Source of the DNA: Acidimicrobiia bacterium
GTDB lineage: Bacteria > Actinomycetota > Acidimicrobiia > IMCC26256 > PALSA-610
Direction: 5' to 3'
NCBI GenBank assembly: GCA_017882905.1
Contig: JADGOO010000051.1
Location: 1 to 58,139 of the forward strand
DNA: 58,139 nt
Position numbers and translations under genes: made by a program. A model generated the notes under the pieces. It saw nothing but the letters and a program-made list of their open reading frames with translations, was not told the origin of the DNA and searched no databases. Of the stretch, positions 33,291 to 40,355 are shown one piece after another. Position 1 is the first letter of the stretch, and each line of letters starts with the position of its first letter.

Positions 33291-33779
33291 TCAGCTCTTG
33301 AGTGCCGTCTCGATCGCGCTGACGAGCGGCTCCGCTTCGGGCTCGACCATCGGCGAGAACCGCGCGATGACGCTGCCGTCGCGATCGACGAGGAACTTCT
33401 CGAAGTTCCAGCGGATGTCGCCGTCGTGGCCTTCGGCGTCGGCCGTCTTGGTGAGCTCCTGATAGAGAGCGTGACGGTCGTCGCCGTTCACGTCGATCTT
33501 CTCGAAGATCGGGAACTGCACCCCGTAGTTCACCGAGCAGAACTCGGCGATCTCGTCGGGGCTGCCCGGCTCCTGGGCACCGAATTGGTTGCACGGGAAC
33601 CCGAGCACCTCGAAGCCCTGGTCGCCGTAGCGATCGTGCAGGTTCTGGAGACCCGTGTACTGCGGCGTGAGGCCGCACTTCGACGCCACGTTCACCATGA
33701 GCGTGACCTTGCCGGACTGCTCGGCGAGCCGGCCGGACTTGCCATCGAGTGAGCTGATCGCTGTGTCGTAAAGGGACAT
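33291..33779 (-). CDS. glutathione peroxidase family protein (Cys-type thiol peroxidase)
   Basis: 162 residues. The peroxidatic Cys lies in ASKCGLTPQYTGL; a conserved GFPCNQFGAQEPG (with the likely resolving-Cys region) and WNFEKFLVDRDG follow. Bacterial Cys-GPx enzymes usually use thioredoxin rather than glutathione; actinobacteria lack glutathione, so thioredoxin or mycoredoxin is the likely reductant. ATG 33779 is 7 nt after -10 box TACCCT (33787-33792). It is divergent from the aminopropyltransferase, with start codons 31 nt apart. Confidence 0.92.
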   Translation of the reverse strand: MSLYDTAISSLDGKSGRLAEQSGKVTLMVNVASKCGLTPQYTGLQNLHDRYGDQGFEVLGFPCNQFGAQEPGSPDEIAEFCSVNYGVQFPIFEKIDVNGDDRHALYQELTKTADAEGHDGDIRWNFEKFLVDRDGSVIARFSPMVEPEAEPLVSAIETALKS

Positions 33780-33809: not shown

Positions 33810-34748
33810 ATGGAAGACGCCGGGATCTGGCTGCGCGAGCTGATCACGCCCTACGACGTGTACCTGCACGGTGCGAGCGAGATCCTGCTGTGGCGGCGCA
33901 CCGAGTTCCAAGAGATCTGCATCGTGCAGACCGAAGCCTTTGGCAAGAAGCTGTTCCTCGACGGCATCGTCCAGTCGAGCGAGGCCGACGAGTTCATCTA
34001 CCACGAGGCGCTCGTGCAGCCTGCGATGCTGACGGCAGGGATGCCGCGCCGGGTGCTCGTGCTCGGCGGCGGCGAGGGCGCGTGCCTGCGCGAAGTGCTG
34101 CGCTGGGACACCGTCACCGAGGCGGTGATGATCGATATCGACGCCGAGGTCGTGAGTGCGTGCCGCGCCCACCTCCCCGAATGGAGCCAGGGCGCCTTCC
34201 ACGATCCCCGGGTACAGCTCCTCCACACCGACGCGGTGCAGTACCTCGAGCACGTGCGCGAGCCCTTCGACGTGATCATCTCCGACATGACCGACCCGGT
34301 CGAAGACGGACCTTCCACGTTCTGCTTCACGCGTGAGTACTTCCGGCGCGTGCAAGCAGCCCTCGGCGACCACGGCGTCTTCGCGCTCCAGGCCGGTCCG
34401 CTCTCACCACCAGAGATCTCGCTCCACGCCAAGGTGTTGCGCACCATGGAGCTCGAGTTCGGGCACGTCCAGGCGTATCCGTGCAACGCCGCCGTCTACG
34501 GCCGCCCGCTCGGCTTCGCTGTCGCGAGCCGCACGCCGATCCACGCGCGCCTCGATCCCGAGCGCACGGCACCGGTGCTCGACGCGCACGTGCGCGGCCC
34601 GCTGCGCTACATCGACGCGCACGTGGCGCGTGGTCTCATGGCCACCCCACCTTTCGTGCGCGCGGCCATCGACGCGAGCGACGTGGTGTACACCGACGCC
34701 GTTCCGCCCCGAACCGCGCACGCCGCGGGATGGGAGGCCGGCGCATGA
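33810..34748 (+). CDS. speE: polyamine aminopropyltransferase, thermospermine-synthase-like
   Basis: Transfers aminopropyl from decarboxylated SAM to a polyamine. The 312 residues carry the SAM-binding GGGEG (86-90, instead of GGGDG) and SDMTDPVEDGP at 158-167, where classical spermidine synthases have SSDP. These features, with YHEALVQPAM and QAGPLSPPE, match the plant ACL5/bacterial thermospermine or agmatine-aminopropyl group better than canonical SpeE. ATG 33810 is 6 nt after -10 box TAGCCT. It overlaps the DinB-MOSC gene by ATGA. No SAM decarboxylase gene is nearby. Confidence 0.85.
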   Translation: MEDAGIWLRELITPYDVYLHGASEILLWRRTEFQEICIVQTEAFGKKLFLDGIVQSSEADEFIYHEALVQPAMLTAGMPRRVLVLGGGEGACLREVLRWDTVTEAVMIDIDAEVVSACRAHLPEWSQGAFHDPRVQLLHTDAVQYLEHVREPFDVIISDMTDPVEDGPSTFCFTREYFRRVQAALGDHGVFALQAGPLSPPEISLHAKVLRTMELEFGHVQAYPCNAAVYGRPLGFAVASRTPIHARLDPERTAPVLDAHVRGPLRYIDAHVARGLMATPPFVRAAIDASDVVYTDAVPPRTAHAAGWEAGA

Positions 34749-35719
34749 TCGAGCAGTGCCACGAGTGCGGCTTCGACAGCGCGGCGTACACCGACGACGA
34801 CGTGCAGGGTTCGTTGCGCGCTGTCGCACCCTGGTGGGGCCTGCTCACCGAAGGCGTCGCCGACGATGTCCTGCACGCCCGCCCGGCCGATGGCGTGTGG
34901 TCGGCGATCGAGTACGGCGAGCACACGGCCGAGGTGCTGCGCCTGCTCACGTTCGGACTGAGCTGGATGCTCACCGACGACAACCCTGTGTTCCCGTCGG
35001 TCGAGCCGCCCCCGTTGAGTGCCCCGCCGTCGTCGGCGTCGCTCGCCGATGTGAGCGCGGCGCTCGCCACGGCCGCTGCGGAGCTGGGTGCGCAGACTGC
35101 GCAGGTCAGTGCCGGGCTCGGCGCACGCACGGCGACGCTCGGCGACGGCTCGGCGATCGACGCCGCGTGGCTAGCCCGCCACGCCGTGCACGACGCGCTG
35201 CACCACCTGCACGACGTGGGCCGCAACCTCGTAGCCCTGGGCGCCGGAGCCGCACCACACCGCGGCGTCGTCGAGCAGGTGAGCTCCTCCGATGGCGGCG
35301 TCCCGAAGCGAGCCGTACCGTCCGCGCAGGTGGGCCCACGCGGGCTCGAGGGCGACCGCCAGGGAACGCGACGCCATCATGGGCGCCAGTGGCAGGCGCT
35401 GTGTCTCATGAGCGCCGAGGCCATCGAGCGCATGCAGGCCGAGGGCCACCCGATCAGCTTCGCCGCCGCGGGCGAGAACATCACCGTGCGCGGCATCGAC
35501 TGGGCCGCGCTGCGGCCCGGCAACCGCGTGCAGATCGGCGGGGCGCTCTGCGAGGTGACGGTGCCCGCTCTGCCGTGCGCGAACAACGCCCAGTGGTTCT
35601 CCGACCGCGACTTCATGCGCATGCACCATGAGCACCACCGAGGTGAGACCCGCTGGTACGCAAGCGTCGTCGACGGCGGCACCGTGTGCGCGGGCGACGA
35701 CGTCGTGCTCGAGCCGTGA
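34745..35719 (+). CDS. DinB-like / MOSC-domain fusion protein
   Basis: 324 residues. Residues 1-165 are a DinB/maleylpyruvate-isomerase-N-like four-helix domain starting CHECGFD, with candidate metal ligands His60 and the HDALHHLHD cluster (149-157). Residues of about 180-320 are a MOSC domain (molybdenum-cofactor sulfurase C-terminal type): SDGGVPKRAV, GLEGDRQ, ENITVRGIDWAALRPG, and the conserved Cys278 in LPCANN. MOSC proteins bind sulfur at this Cys or reduce N-hydroxylated compounds. DinB domains in this phylum often use thiol cofactors such as mycothiol. The function of the fusion is unknown. It is translationally coupled to the aminopropyltransferase and followed by a sulfatase. Confidence 0.75.
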   Translation: MIEQCHECGFDSAAYTDDDVQGSLRAVAPWWGLLTEGVADDVLHARPADGVWSAIEYGEHTAEVLRLLTFGLSWMLTDDNPVFPSVEPPPLSAPPSSASLADVSAALATAAAELGAQTAQVSAGLGARTATLGDGSAIDAAWLARHAVHDALHHLHDVGRNLVALGAGAAPHRGVVEQVSSSDGGVPKRAVPSAQVGPRGLEGDRQGTRRHHGRQWQALCLMSAEAIERMQAEGHPISFAAAGENITVRGIDWAALRPGNRVQIGGALCEVTVPALPCANNAQWFSDRDFMRMHHEHHRGETRWYASVVDGGTVCAGDDVVLEP

Positions 35720-35747: not shown

Positions 35748-37994
35748 ATGAGCACACTACGAATCGGACGAACGATCGCCGAGTCGACGCCGGAGTTCGC
35801 GCCGCTGCCACGCCCGCCGCAGGGCGCACCCAACGTGGTGATGATCGTGCTCGACGACACCGGCTTCGGCCAGCTCGGCTGCTTCGGGTCCGACATCGAA
35901 ACGCCGAACATCGACGGCCTGGCCGCGGGCGGGCTGCGATTCAATCGGTTCCACGTGACCGCGTTGTGCTCGCCGACGCGAGCGTGCCTGCTCACCGGGC
36001 GCAACCACCACAGCGTCGGCATGGGCTTCCTGCCCGACATCCCGATCGGCTTCCCCGGCTACAACGGCCGCATCCCCGACGCCACACCAACGTTGCCGCG
36101 CGTGTTGCGCGCGCATGGCTACAACACGTTCGCGGTGGGCAAGTGGCATCTCGCACCGCGATGGGAGCTGAGTGCGTCGGGCCCCTTCGATCGATGGCCA
36201 CTCGGGCTCGGCTTCGAGCGCTACTACGGCTTCCTCGGCGGCGACACGAACCAGTTCGCGCCCGAGCTCGTGCGCGACAACGGGTTCATCGAGCCGCCGC
36301 GCACTCCCGACTCCGGCTACCACCTCACCGAAGACCTCGCCGATCAGGCGATGCGCCTCGTCGTCGATCAACAGCACGCCACGCCGGGCAAGCCGTTCTT
36401 CTTGTACTTCGCCACCGGCGCGATGCATGCGCCACACCAGGCACCCCGAGAGTGGATCGACCGCTACGCCGGCCGCTTCGACGCCGGTTGGGATGACTGG
36501 CGCGACGGCGTGTTCGCCCGCCAGCAGACGCTCGGCGTGGTGCCCGCGGGCACGGCACTGCCGCCCCGTCCGAGCTGGGTCCCCGAATGGAGCTCGCTCG
36601 CCGACGATCGCCAACGGCTCTTCGCCCGCATGATGGAGGTGTTCGCGGGCTTTCTCTCGCACACCGACGCGCAGATCGGCAAGCTGATGACGTTCCTCGA
36701 ACGGCTCGGCGTGCTCGACAACACGATCGTGCTGTTGCTCTCCGACAACGGCACCAGCGCGGAGGGCGGCCCGCACGGATCGTTGAACGAGCACCGCTTC
36801 ACCCACGACATGCTCGACGATGTCGGCGACACGATCGCGCACATCGACGATCTCGGCGGGCCGCGCGCGTACAACCACTACGCATGGGGTTGGGCGTGGG
36901 CCGGCAACACGCCCATGCGGCTGTGGAAGCGCTACACGTGGCTCGGTGGCGTACGCACGCCGCTCGTGATGCACTGGCCGGCCGGGCTCGACGCGTCGGG
37001 CGAGATACGCAGCCAGTTCGCGCACGCGATCGACGTGATGCCCACCGTGCTCGACTGCATCGGGCTCGACGCGCCGGCTGGCATGCACGGCGCGTCGCTG
37101 CGCCCGGCGCTCACCGATCTCGCGGCACCGAGCGCGCGGTCCACCCAGTACTTCGAGATGCTCGGCTCCCGGGCGATCTTCCACGACGGCTGGAAGGCCG
37201 TCACGGACCACATCGGCAAGCAGCTCACGGTGGAGCGCGAGCTGCTCGAAGGCAGCCTCGACTTCGGCACCGACACGTGGTCGTTGTTCCATCTCGACGC
37301 CGACTTCGCCGAGGCCGACGACCTCGCCGCGCAGGAGCCGGAACGACTCACCGAGATGATGGAACTGTGGTGGGCCGAGGCCGGTCGCTTCGGCGTGCTG
37401 CCGCTCGACGACAGCTTCATCGGTCGTGCCGTCGCGCTCGAGCCGCGCCCCTACATGCCGGCCCACCGAACCCGCTACCTCGCGGGCGGTGGTGCGATCT
37501 CCGAAGACGCGCTGCCGCCGCTCGGCGCGGGCTTCCTGCTGCGCGCCACGGTCGACACCGTCGCGCCCGGCGCGCTCTGCGCGCTCGGCGACTGGAACAA
37601 CGGCTTCGCGCTCTACGTGCAGGGCGGCGAGCTCATCCTCACCGTGAACCTGTTCGGCGCCATCACTCGCGTGGCCGCGCCCATCCGCGATGCACGGGTG
37701 CTGGGGTTCGACTACCGGCGGGGCCGCGGCGACGCGCGCACGCTCGTGCTGACGGCCGACGGCGATGATCTTGCGAGCGCGCCCTTGCCCGCCGACCTCC
37801 CGTTCCGATGGCAGATCGCCGGTGGCGGCTTCACGGTCGGCTTCGACCGCGGCTTCCCGGTGTGCGACGACTACGAGCCGCCGTTCGCGTACACAGGCGG
37901 TCTGCACGAGATCGAGATCGAGGTCCCGTTCCTCGCCCCGCGCGCCGCGCCGCCCGCCGCCGAGACGATCGCCCGCGCCCTCCACCACGAGTGA
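35748..37994 (+). CDS. arylsulfatase, cytoplasmic type
   Basis: 748-residue sulfatase with no signal peptide. PNVVMIVLDDTGFGQLGCFG is the metal site, the formylglycine motif is CSPTR (Cys74, Thr in place of Ser), and AVGKWHLAP and LLLSDNGTSAEGG follow. A C-terminal beta-domain (about 600-745) is the extra region of the large AtsA-like group. It is probably the third gene of the aminopropyltransferase operon, 28 nt after DinB-MOSC. ATG 35748 is preceded by a modest AGAGG. It faces a homologous sulfatase across a long hairpin. An activating formylglycine-generating enzyme is needed but not seen here. Confidence 0.92.
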   Translation: MSTLRIGRTIAESTPEFAPLPRPPQGAPNVVMIVLDDTGFGQLGCFGSDIETPNIDGLAAGGLRFNRFHVTALCSPTRACLLTGRNHHSVGMGFLPDIPIGFPGYNGRIPDATPTLPRVLRAHGYNTFAVGKWHLAPRWELSASGPFDRWPLGLGFERYYGFLGGDTNQFAPELVRDNGFIEPPRTPDSGYHLTEDLADQAMRLVVDQQHATPGKPFFLYFATGAMHAPHQAPREWIDRYAGRFDAGWDDWRDGVFARQQTLGVVPAGTALPPRPSWVPEWSSLADDRQRLFARMMEVFAGFLSHTDAQIGKLMTFLERLGVLDNTIVLLLSDNGTSAEGGPHGSLNEHRFTHDMLDDVGDTIAHIDDLGGPRAYNHYAWGWAWAGNTPMRLWKRYTWLGGVRTPLVMHWPAGLDASGEIRSQFAHAIDVMPTVLDCIGLDAPAGMHGASLRPALTDLAAPSARSTQYFEMLGSRAIFHDGWKAVTDHIGKQLTVERELLEGSLDFGTDTWSLFHLDADFAEADDLAAQEPERLTEMMELWWAEAGRFGVLPLDDSFIGRAVALEPRPYMPAHRTRYLAGGGAISEDALPPLGAGFLLRATVDTVAPGALCALGDWNNGFALYVQGGELILTVNLFGAITRVAAPIRDARVLGFDYRRGRGDARTLVLTADGDDLASAPLPADLPFRWQIAGGGFTVGFDRGFPVCDDYEPPFAYTGGLHEIEIEVPFLAPRAAPPAAETIARALHHE

Positions 37995-38054: not shown

Positions 38055-40355
38055 TCACTGCTCGCTCATGATGGCGGCGAACTCGCTTTCCGGGTCGACG
38101 ATCGCGGTGCCCTGCACGTCGATGAGCGCACCGACGATGTCGACGTTGGCGGTGAACGGCGCCGTGTAGTCGGGACTGATCGCCGGCCCCACCTCGTAAC
38201 CGCAGGTGAGCCCCGACCCGGTGATCGAGAACCGCGCCGCGGTGAACGACGGCACGTTGCCTTCGCCCACCGTCGCGTCATCGACCACGAGGCGTACGTC
38301 GGCCGAGAAGTCGCCCGGCGCGGTCACCTCGGCGCGCAACACGTGCCGGCCGGGGCCGACAACGGTGTTCGACTCGACGCGGTCGATGCGCCGACCTACG
38401 TGGTTGTGCACGTAGGTGAGCCGCCCGTCGAGCAGGTAGAGCACCCAGCCGCCGAGCACGGAGCCCAACCCGACGAGCACACCGTTCCCCACCACGCCTT
38501 CAGGCACCTCGATCGTGACCGTGATGGCATGGGTTCGATTGCGCACGTTCGGTGCCACCAGCTCGGGGATCATGGCACCGTGCGCACGCAGCACCGTGCG
38601 CGAACGATCGGCGCGCCGGCGCGGGCGCGGGTTCATCAGCGCGGCGAGCGGCCGGTTGTCGAGCGGGAGCACGTCGTTGCGGCGCGCTTCGCTCCACCAG
38701 AGCTCGATCATCGCGGCCAGCCGGCTGGGCTCACTCGCGGCGAGGTCCACGCACTCCGAGAAGTCGTTGCGCTTGTCGTAGAGCTCCCACACGTCATCGT
38801 CGAACGGCGCGTCGGGATCGAGACCGTCGCCATACATGCCGCCGAGAGGCTTGAACGTGACGGCCTTCCAGCCGTCGTGATAGATCGCCCGTGAGCCCAG
38901 CATCTCGAAGTACTGCGTGGTGTGTCTCTCGCCCGCGTCGCGGCCGCCGGCACCGAGCAGGTACGCGAAGCTCGCACCGTCGATCGGCGTCTGCGGCACG
39001 TCGGCGATCACGGCCGGCGCTTCGATACCGCACAGCTCGAGGACGGTCGGCAGCACGTCGATCGCGTGCGCGAACTGATGCCGGATCGCGCCGCGCTCAC
39101 CGACCGGCACGGCCGCCGGGAAGCGGATGATGCACGGGTCGGCGATGCCGCCTTCGTGCACCTCGCGCTTCCAGCGCTTCAACGGCGTGTTGCCCGCCAT
39201 CGTCCAGCCCCACGGGTAGTTGTTGTGCGCGGTGGGCGTGCCGAGCTCGTCGATGCGCTCGCGTAGCTCACGCCGGCCGGCGGGAATGCCGTTCCAGAGC
39301 CGCGCGTCGTTGATCGACCCGCGCTCGCCACCTTCGGCGCTCGCACCGTTGTCACTCACGAGGATCACGAGCGTGTCGTCGAGCTCGCCCGTCGCTTCGA
39401 GATGGCCGAGCAGGCGCCCGATCTGATCGTCGGTGTACGACAGGAACGCGGCGAAGCACTCCATGAAGCGGGCCGCGACCGCCTGGTCTTCCGGAGCGAG
39501 CGACTCCCACGCCGGCACCCAGGGAGGGCGGGGCGCGAGCTGGGTGCCCGGGCGCACGAGTCCCGACGCGAGCTGGCGCTCGTGCGTGCGCGTGCGCCAT
39601 GCGTCCCAGCCGTCGTCGAACTGGCCGCGGTAGCGATCGATCCATTCGCGGGGCGCGTGGTGCGGCGAATGGCACGCACCAGTGGCGAAGTAGAGCAAGA
39701 AGCGTTGCGTGTCGTCGACCGCGCGCAGATCGCCCAGGTACTCGATGGCCTTGTCGGCGAGATCGGCACTGAGGTGGTAGCCCTCGGCGGGCGAACGCGG
39801 CGGGCGCACCGAGTGGTTGTCGTGATAGAGCGCGGGCACGAACTGATGCGTCTCGCCGCCGTGGAAGCCGTACCACCGTTGGAAGCCGCGGCTCACGGGC
39901 CAGGTGTCGCGCGGCGCGGCCATGTGCGTCTCGTCTTCAGGCGTGAGATGCCACTTGCCCACGGCATAGGTGGCGTACCCGTTGGCGCCGAGGATCTCGC
40001 CGAGGAACCCGTTGCGCTTCGGGATCCGGCCCGAGTAGCCGGGGAAGCCCACCGCGAGGTCGGCGACGCGTGCCATGCCGTTGCGATGATGGTTGCGGCC
40101 GGTGAGCAGGCACGAGCGCGTGGGCGAGCACAGCGCCGTGGTGTGGAAGTTCGCGAGCCGCACTCCGTGCGCGGCCAAGCCGTCGATGTGCGGGGTGGCG
40201 ATGTCGGAGCCGTAGCAGCCGAGCTGCGCGTAGCCCACGTCGTCGAGCACGATCACCAGCACGTTGGGTGCACCCGCCGGCGGTTCCGGTTCCGGCGGCC
40301 ACCACGGCGTCGACTCACGCCACGTCGGGCCGATGACACCCTGGAACTCGTCCAC
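38055..40355 (-). CDS. arylsulfatase, cytoplasmic type (homolog of 35748-37994)
   Basis: 766 residues, homologous over the full length to the facing sulfatase: PNVLVIVLDDVGYAQLGCYG, the formylglycine motif CSPTR (Cys76), AVGKWHLTP, VSDNGASAEGG, YFEMLGSRAIYHDGWKAV and the C-terminal beta-domain. No signal peptide. The start is GTG 40355 with a strong Shine-Dalgarno GGGGGAG 7 nt upstream, so this transcript, unlike many neighbours, is leadered. The inverted paralog pair probably arose by duplication and targets related sulfate esters. Confidence 0.92.
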   Translation of the reverse strand: MDEFQGVIGPTWRESTPWWPPEPEPPAGAPNVLVIVLDDVGYAQLGCYGSDIATPHIDGLAAHGVRLANFHTTALCSPTRSCLLTGRNHHRNGMARVADLAVGFPGYSGRIPKRNGFLGEILGANGYATYAVGKWHLTPEDETHMAAPRDTWPVSRGFQRWYGFHGGETHQFVPALYHDNHSVRPPRSPAEGYHLSADLADKAIEYLGDLRAVDDTQRFLLYFATGACHSPHHAPREWIDRYRGQFDDGWDAWRTRTHERQLASGLVRPGTQLAPRPPWVPAWESLAPEDQAVAARFMECFAAFLSYTDDQIGRLLGHLEATGELDDTLVILVSDNGASAEGGERGSINDARLWNGIPAGRRELRERIDELGTPTAHNNYPWGWTMAGNTPLKRWKREVHEGGIADPCIIRFPAAVPVGERGAIRHQFAHAIDVLPTVLELCGIEAPAVIADVPQTPIDGASFAYLLGAGGRDAGERHTTQYFEMLGSRAIYHDGWKAVTFKPLGGMYGDGLDPDAPFDDDVWELYDKRNDFSECVDLAASEPSRLAAMIELWWSEARRNDVLPLDNRPLAALMNPRPRRRADRSRTVLRAHGAMIPELVAPNVRNRTHAITVTIEVPEGVVGNGVLVGLGSVLGGWVLYLLDGRLTYVHNHVGRRIDRVESNTVVGPGRHVLRAEVTAPGDFSADVRLVVDDATVGEGNVPSFTAARFSITGSGLTCGYEVGPAISPDYTAPFTANVDIVGALIDVQGTAIVDPESEFAAIMSEQ

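Follow-up and report, generated by a model that had tools for sequence, protein, structure and literature searches.

A DinB four-helix bundle fused to a MOSC domain in Acidimicrobiia: conservation, erosion and a possible role beside a putative molybdenum site

The fusion gene and its neighbours

The window, that is, the whole stretch of DNA that was analysed (58,139 nucleotides of contig JADGOO010000051.1 from an Acidimicrobiia bacterium), carries a gene whose product joins a DinB-like domain to a MOSC domain. The gene, its domains and the two genes that flank it are arranged as follows.

33810..34748, + strand: upstream gene, spermidine synthase-like (Spermine_synth by Pfam; below the equivalog cut-off in NCBIfam)
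34745..35719, + strand: DinB-MOSC fusion gene, a single open frame of 324 amino acids with full-length homologues in related genomes
34757..34768, + strand: Cys5-x-x-Cys8 knuckle ahead of DinB helix 1, present in 15/15 full fusions, 3/3 truncated proteins and 0/10 remnants
34766..35248, + strand: DinB four-helix bundle, residues ~8-168, with the metal triad His60/His149/His153 (Pfam DinB_2; structural superposition)
35249..35716, + strand: MOSC domain, residues 169-324, with Cys278 and the clade motif HGRQWQA at 212-218 (Pfam MOSC; superposition)
35748..37994, + strand: downstream gene, sulfatase family (Pfam)

The fusion gene and the upstream gene overlap by four bases, with the ATG start codon and the upstream stop codon sharing the sequence ATGA, and the hexamer GGGAGG is present at 34732-34737, 7 bases 5' of this ATG. 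The coordinates and both domain names given in an earlier sequence-only reading of this DNA agree with Pfam, in which the protein matches DinB_2 (PF12867) with 40.3 bits over residues 34-156 (cut-off 24.8 bits) and MOSC (PF03473) with 72.3 bits over residues 209-320 (cut-off 22.7 bits). Both profile and fold place the protein in the MOSC superfamily as well as in the DinB/YfiT superfamily, and the three-histidine metal site of the latter is represented by His60, His149 and His153. DinB_2 fills the N-terminus, and no MOSC_N, ferredoxin, flavin or cysteine-desulfurase domain was found by Pfam. The presence of DinB and MOSC in one protein is a new domain architecture, of which searches of the review and full-text literature returned no description; the sequence-only reading had likewise been unable to match it to a described system.

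An AlphaFold model of the window protein, which was built from a 14-sequence alignment, has a mean pLDDT of 89.9 and a pTM of 0.86, and the high pTM suggests that the two domains are held in a fixed arrangement, as far as the prediction goes. In this model, the DinB part (residues 8-168) superposes on YfiT with a Z score of 17.9, and residues 15-165 superpose on the Mycobacterium tuberculosis mycothiol S-transferase 8F5V with a Z score of 14.8. The MOSC part (residues ~165-324) matches YuaD (Z 17.8), YiiM (Z 17.1) and mARC1 (Z 14.0), and the protein terminates at the last MOSC strand.

Polyamine and sulfatase genes had been proposed as informative neighbours, and neither turned out to be a conserved partner. 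No spermidine synthase counterpart is located beside other fusions, and of 26 other neighbourhoods examined a single one (G580, L079) has a sulfatase next to the fusion, with another sulfatase ~6 kb off in G012. Sulfatases are common here, with a second copy within the window: two related sulfatase genes stand convergent just downstream of the fusion (35748-37994 on the + strand and ~38055-40355 on the - strand). As well, a glutathione-peroxidase family gene is located at 33291-33716 (- strand), divergent from the spermidine synthase-like gene. A conserved operon was also rejected, as the neighbours differ among lineages. In the two f12 genomes (L046 6158-10854 and L047 8431-10044), P450 genes are adjacent to the fusion, on both sides in L046, while a HAD-acyltransferase lies near the fusion in G005 and G009 (f1 g6), and an MFS transporter and a histidine kinase are upstream of the f98 fusions.

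Distribution and origin of the fusion

Besides the window protein, 14 full-length fusion homologues were identified in the window's own family code and five further ones, including genomes of the same family or order (G005, G009, G012, G011, G045 and G048) and of the same class (G580, G562, G630, G470, G472, G615, G530 and G589). In an alignment of these 14, identity to the window protein is 32-50% over both domains, and Cys5, Cys8, His149, His153, Asp204, His212-Gly213, Gly243-Glu244-Asn245 and Cys278 are invariant. The joined frame is real and evolutionarily conserved, because full-length homologues span both domains in related genomes. It had been envisaged that the fusion might be a frame-joining artefact, with separate genes in close relatives. 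Instead, close relatives carry the fusion, MOSC-only relatives exist as an outgroup to it, and the alignment of the fifteen full-length fusions, which come from independent genomes, continues across the linker with no break in frame. Nothing was found in favour of a frame-joining or assembly artefact, the probability of which we regard as negligible.

A phylum-wide survey of an even sample of 396 genomes (E 1e-20), which was repeated with a profile, returned no full fusion except the window's own. The matches in this sample were truncated or remnant relatives from the same class and from one other family (f69), together with standalone MOSC proteins (e.g., in G234) and one standalone DinB protein.

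In the MOSC-domain tree (41 rows, 200 bootstrap trees), 28/28 N-terminally extended proteins fall on one side of a branch with support of 100/99, which is recovered in 100% of the bootstrap trees, while standalone MOSC proteins of ~150 residues and other MOSC proteins lie outside this clade. Within the extended clade, grouping the rows with an intact DinB as a single clade was rejected (AU p 0.007). The DinB-domain tree divides the fused domains into several groups, and a single clade of them was not rejected (AU p 0.286). The most economical account is a single fusion, after which DinB eroded repeatedly. According to this account, an ancestral standalone MOSC protein would have gained a DinB four-helix bundle at its N-terminus, and sister lineages would have shed first the metal site and later the greater part of the bundle.

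Metal site and erosion of the DinB half

The BstA/YfiT transferases are metal dependent and possess three conserved histidines, which are His67, His160 and His164 in BstA (PMC5815605). The window protein and the BstA/YfiT family, including the M. tuberculosis mycothiol S-transferase, have in common the four-helix bundle and a His triad with H-x3-H, and by this comparison His60, His149 and His153 form an S-transferase-like metal triad. The N-terminal histidine cluster of the sequence-only reading thus contains a recognizable site, which may bind a metal, judging from its residues. Unlike these S-transferases, the DinB domain studied here is joined to MOSC, and both the metal site and the bundle were lost in several fused relatives. 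All three histidines are retained in 9/15 full fusions; in the other 6/15, the position of His60 is occupied by Arg, Gly, Ser or Asp. The triad is present in all five f1 fusions as well as in the f12 and f110 fusions, which suggests that DinB is still doing something in these lineages.

Elsewhere the bundle itself is reduced. Three truncated proteins (L050, L067 and L068) keep CxxC and H-x3-H, with the middle of the bundle missing through deletion of helices, and ten remnants (L049, L051, L052, L054, L055, L056, L069, L072, L074 and L078) have an N-terminal part of only 77-130 residues. In HHalign, a profile of the remnants matches helix 1 of the DinB profile with a probability of 94% (E 1.2e-7). 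When scored individually against the fused-DinB profile, L049, L074, L052 and L055 exceed 1000/1000 shuffled controls, as does L056 by a narrow margin, while the other five of the ten are not significant against such controls. In remnant L069, which has no Pfam DinB match, the N-terminus is modelled as a hairpin plus helices with pLDDT 94-98 (whole-model pTM 0.91), and among solved structures this model matched only MOSC and unrelated barrels, in a comparison that barely probes the helical stub. These findings suggest that the main work falls to the MOSC half and that the DinB half was repeatedly reduced to a structural stub in relatives. Since sister lineages discarded the metal site and, later, the bulk of the bundle, the core function does not depend on DinB catalysis.

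What the DinB half contributes can be explained in several ways. One is that a structural zinc site made of Cys5, Cys8, His149 and His153 joins helices 1 and 4, so that DinB is a pure scaffold. These four residues are kept in 18/18 full or truncated proteins, nine of them without His60, and the CxxC is gone from the 10 remnants. However, standalone DinB proteins keep the same four residues plus His60, and co-retention may therefore reflect shared ancestry; moreover, remnant L056 seems to retain just the first of the two histidines. We consider a pure zinc scaffold unlikely. The C-x2-C and H-x3-H pattern, which persists in L050, L067, L068 and L061-L065 despite the loss of His60 or helices, could nevertheless be a zinc site by its arrangement of residues.

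Another explanation is a bifunctional thiol-linked detoxification enzyme, in which the DinB metal site would activate mycothiol, and the thiol would then conjugate the substrate or feed electrons to the Moco of the MOSC domain. Consistent with this, the window protein and the f1, f12 and f110 fusions all retain His60, His149, His153 and the CxxC, and mycothiol S-transferase 8F5V is among the closest DinB structures. The electron donor of YiiM is, moreover, not known (PMC5818509). Genes for mycothiol synthesis were also searched for in the host genomes, and although all MshC and MshA matches are below the curated cut-offs, an MshC-like match clearly above the CysS-level copy was present in 17/20 genomes (G011 was ambiguous) and an MshA-like match of at least 253 bits was present in 22/22, with the window genome positive in both searches. 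In both f98 genomes tested (G470 and G472), whose fusions lack His60, the MshC search gave a CysS-level match only, with an MshA-like match present. The absence of His60 in f98 alongside an MshC match of CysS level only would fit a thiol link, but this correlation comes from one lineage. Against it, DinB is eroded or a stub in f20, f30, f31, f69 and f112, yet those tested keep MshC-like genes; f20 members, for instance, retain MshC while losing DinB. Taken together, a thiol-linked enzyme of this kind is possible but rather doubtful. A more specific proposal, in which mycothiol or another thiol docks at the DinB metal site and electrons pass, perhaps via the CxxC, to the MOSC Moco, is in our judgement distinctly unlikely; if true, the protein would be the first MOSC reductase to carry its own thiol electron donor.

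The MOSC site and the predicted activity

The MOSC half is far better conserved than the DinB half. Among the full fusions (105 pairs), mean pairwise identity is 52.3% for MOSC and 28.5% for DinB, with MOSC higher in 104/105 pairs, and Asp204, His212, Gly213, Gly243-Glu244-Asn245 and Cys278 are never lost. The retention of the MOSC cysteine, as noted in the sequence-only reading, is supported by its alignment with YiiM C120; this cysteine, which is invariant in MOSC proteins (C119/C120 in YiiM; PMC5818509) and is the presumed molybdenum ligand (PMC10637980), is present in 41/41 rows compared. Counting along the alignment, Gln217, Ala218, Asn245 and Cys278 of the window protein lie at YiiM Arg55, Ala56, Asn87 and Cys120, respectively.

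YiiM and YuaD (PDB 1O65, 5YHH, 5YHI and 1ORU) share with the fusion protein the MOSC fold (Z 14-18), the invariant cysteine, the GEN motif and the Asp-His-Gly region. In contrast to YiiM, which has a C-terminal 3-alpha domain, the fusion protein possesses an N-terminal DinB domain instead. It scores 38.4 bits against the NCBIfam 6-hydroxyaminopurine reductase model, far below the cut-off of 294, and so falls outside the YiiM subfamily. The YiiM/YuaD motif HGGPDRA is changed to HGRxWQA in the fusion clade, YiiM Gln115, Arg117 and Ser118 are not retained, and Ser200 and Trp201 have no counterpart in a protein that ends with the last MOSC strand. Similarly, mARC/YcbX proteins share the MOSC fold with the molybdenum-ligand cysteine (mARC1 Z 14.0), whereas the MOSC_N beta-barrel that precedes MOSC in this subfamily is absent from the fusion protein.

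The pocket motif distinguishes the extended clade from its relatives. Standalone MOSC proteins and YiiM carry HG[G/S]P[D/E][Q/R], while the extended clade mostly carries HGRP[W/F]QA, and no letter at residue 214 or 216 occurs in both the extended and the standalone group. This shift is found in 28/28 extended proteins, eroded ones included, and it adjoins the positions of the YiiM cofactor residues Arg55 and Ala56 (PMC5818509). The motif change connects the N-terminal module with the pocket of MOSC and not with thiol chemistry, and we infer that the DinB bundle packs near the pocket motif.

All MOSC proteins assayed in vitro were N-reductive (PMC10637980), and a Moco-dependent N-reductase core is therefore the likeliest for the fusion protein as well. 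MoaA matches in 20/20 genomes searched, including the window genome, are compatible with Moco use. On balance, and with somewhat better than even confidence, we propose that the fusion protein is a Moco-dependent MOSC reductase of the YuaD/YiiM type, in which a captured DinB bundle is an accessory wall of the cavity. Cys278 would serve as the molybdenum ligand, and the MOSC core would probably deoxygenate N-hydroxylated or other N-oxygenated compounds. The DinB bundle would pack on MOSC as an accessory module that walls the cofactor or substrate cavity, a role corresponding to that of the C-terminal helical bundle in YiiM and of MOSC_N in mARC/YcbX; the YiiM bundle has itself been compared to the further barrel-like part of mARC/YcbX (PMC5818509). 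The computation itself demonstrates the fusion, the one clade of extended proteins in the MOSC tree, the erosion, the invariance of the MOSC site and the change of the pocket motif; Moco binding, N-reduction and the cavity-wall role are what we infer for the fusion protein. Several findings count against this reading: standalone sister MOSC proteins (~150 residues) manage without such a module, the metal triad persists in the f1, f12 and f110 fusions, the YiiM residues Gln115, Arg117 and Ser118 are not retained, and in the DinB tree the fused domains do not come together as a single clade.

The sequence-only reading had proposed a thiol-cofactor-linked sulfur-transfer or detoxification enzyme. 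Of these, detoxification, by way of Moco-dependent N-reduction, is the likeliest activity. Thiol-linked sulfur transfer as the core function is not supported, given the loss of the DinB site or domain in several lineages beside an invariant MOSC site and the N-reductive activity of all MOSC proteins assayed in vitro (PMC10637980). A sulfur-carrier or Moco-sulfurase-like protein, with a persulfide on Cys278 and a sulfur donor supplied by the DinB part, would recall the first prediction for MOSC domains, that of metal-sulfur cluster biosynthesis (Anantharaman and Aravind 2002, as cited in PMC10637980). As well, EgtB and OvsA, which form C-S bonds, share the DinB fold and appeared in the fold search. 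These sulfoxide/selenoxide synthases resemble the fusion protein in having an N-terminal DinB bundle with a catalytic partner domain. There, DinB is paired with an FGE-sulfatase-like domain and contributes its His site to the active site. In the fusion protein, however, the C-terminal domain is MOSC and not FGE-sulfatase-like, and the His site, like the DinB catalytic residues in general, is dispensable in the clade. Furthermore, the protein has no cysteine-desulfurase domain, no sulfur-transfer neighbour was found beside the fusion genes in the neighbourhoods examined, and the assayed MOSC proteins are N-reductases whose cysteine is likely a molybdenum ligand (PMC10637980). A sulfur carrier thus appears very improbable.

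MOSC proteins are a large and poorly studied group of molybdenum enzymes, and the redox partner of the standalone YiiM type is not known (PMC5818509). The graded series described here, from an intact DinB through loss of the metal site and loss of helices to a helical stub, resembles an enzyme domain becoming a scaffold in another enzyme, and its eroded members are natural variants for asking whether DinB chemistry feeds the molybdenum site.

Finally, further DinB and MOSC genes are adjacent in the window genome. At L003 1492-2972 (G000:C207), a pentapeptide-DinB gene immediately precedes a mARC/YcbX-like gene (MOSC_N-MOSC) of the same orientation; a general DinB-MOSC link was not upheld by this pair, as 0 homologous DinB loci fetched elsewhere have a MOSC_N-MOSC neighbour. 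At L004 335-2049 (G000:C196), a small MOSC gene is convergent, end to end, with a gene matching DinB_2. Overall, 3/4 MOSC genes in this genome, which has only 15 DinB matches, have a DinB partner, either fused or adjacent.
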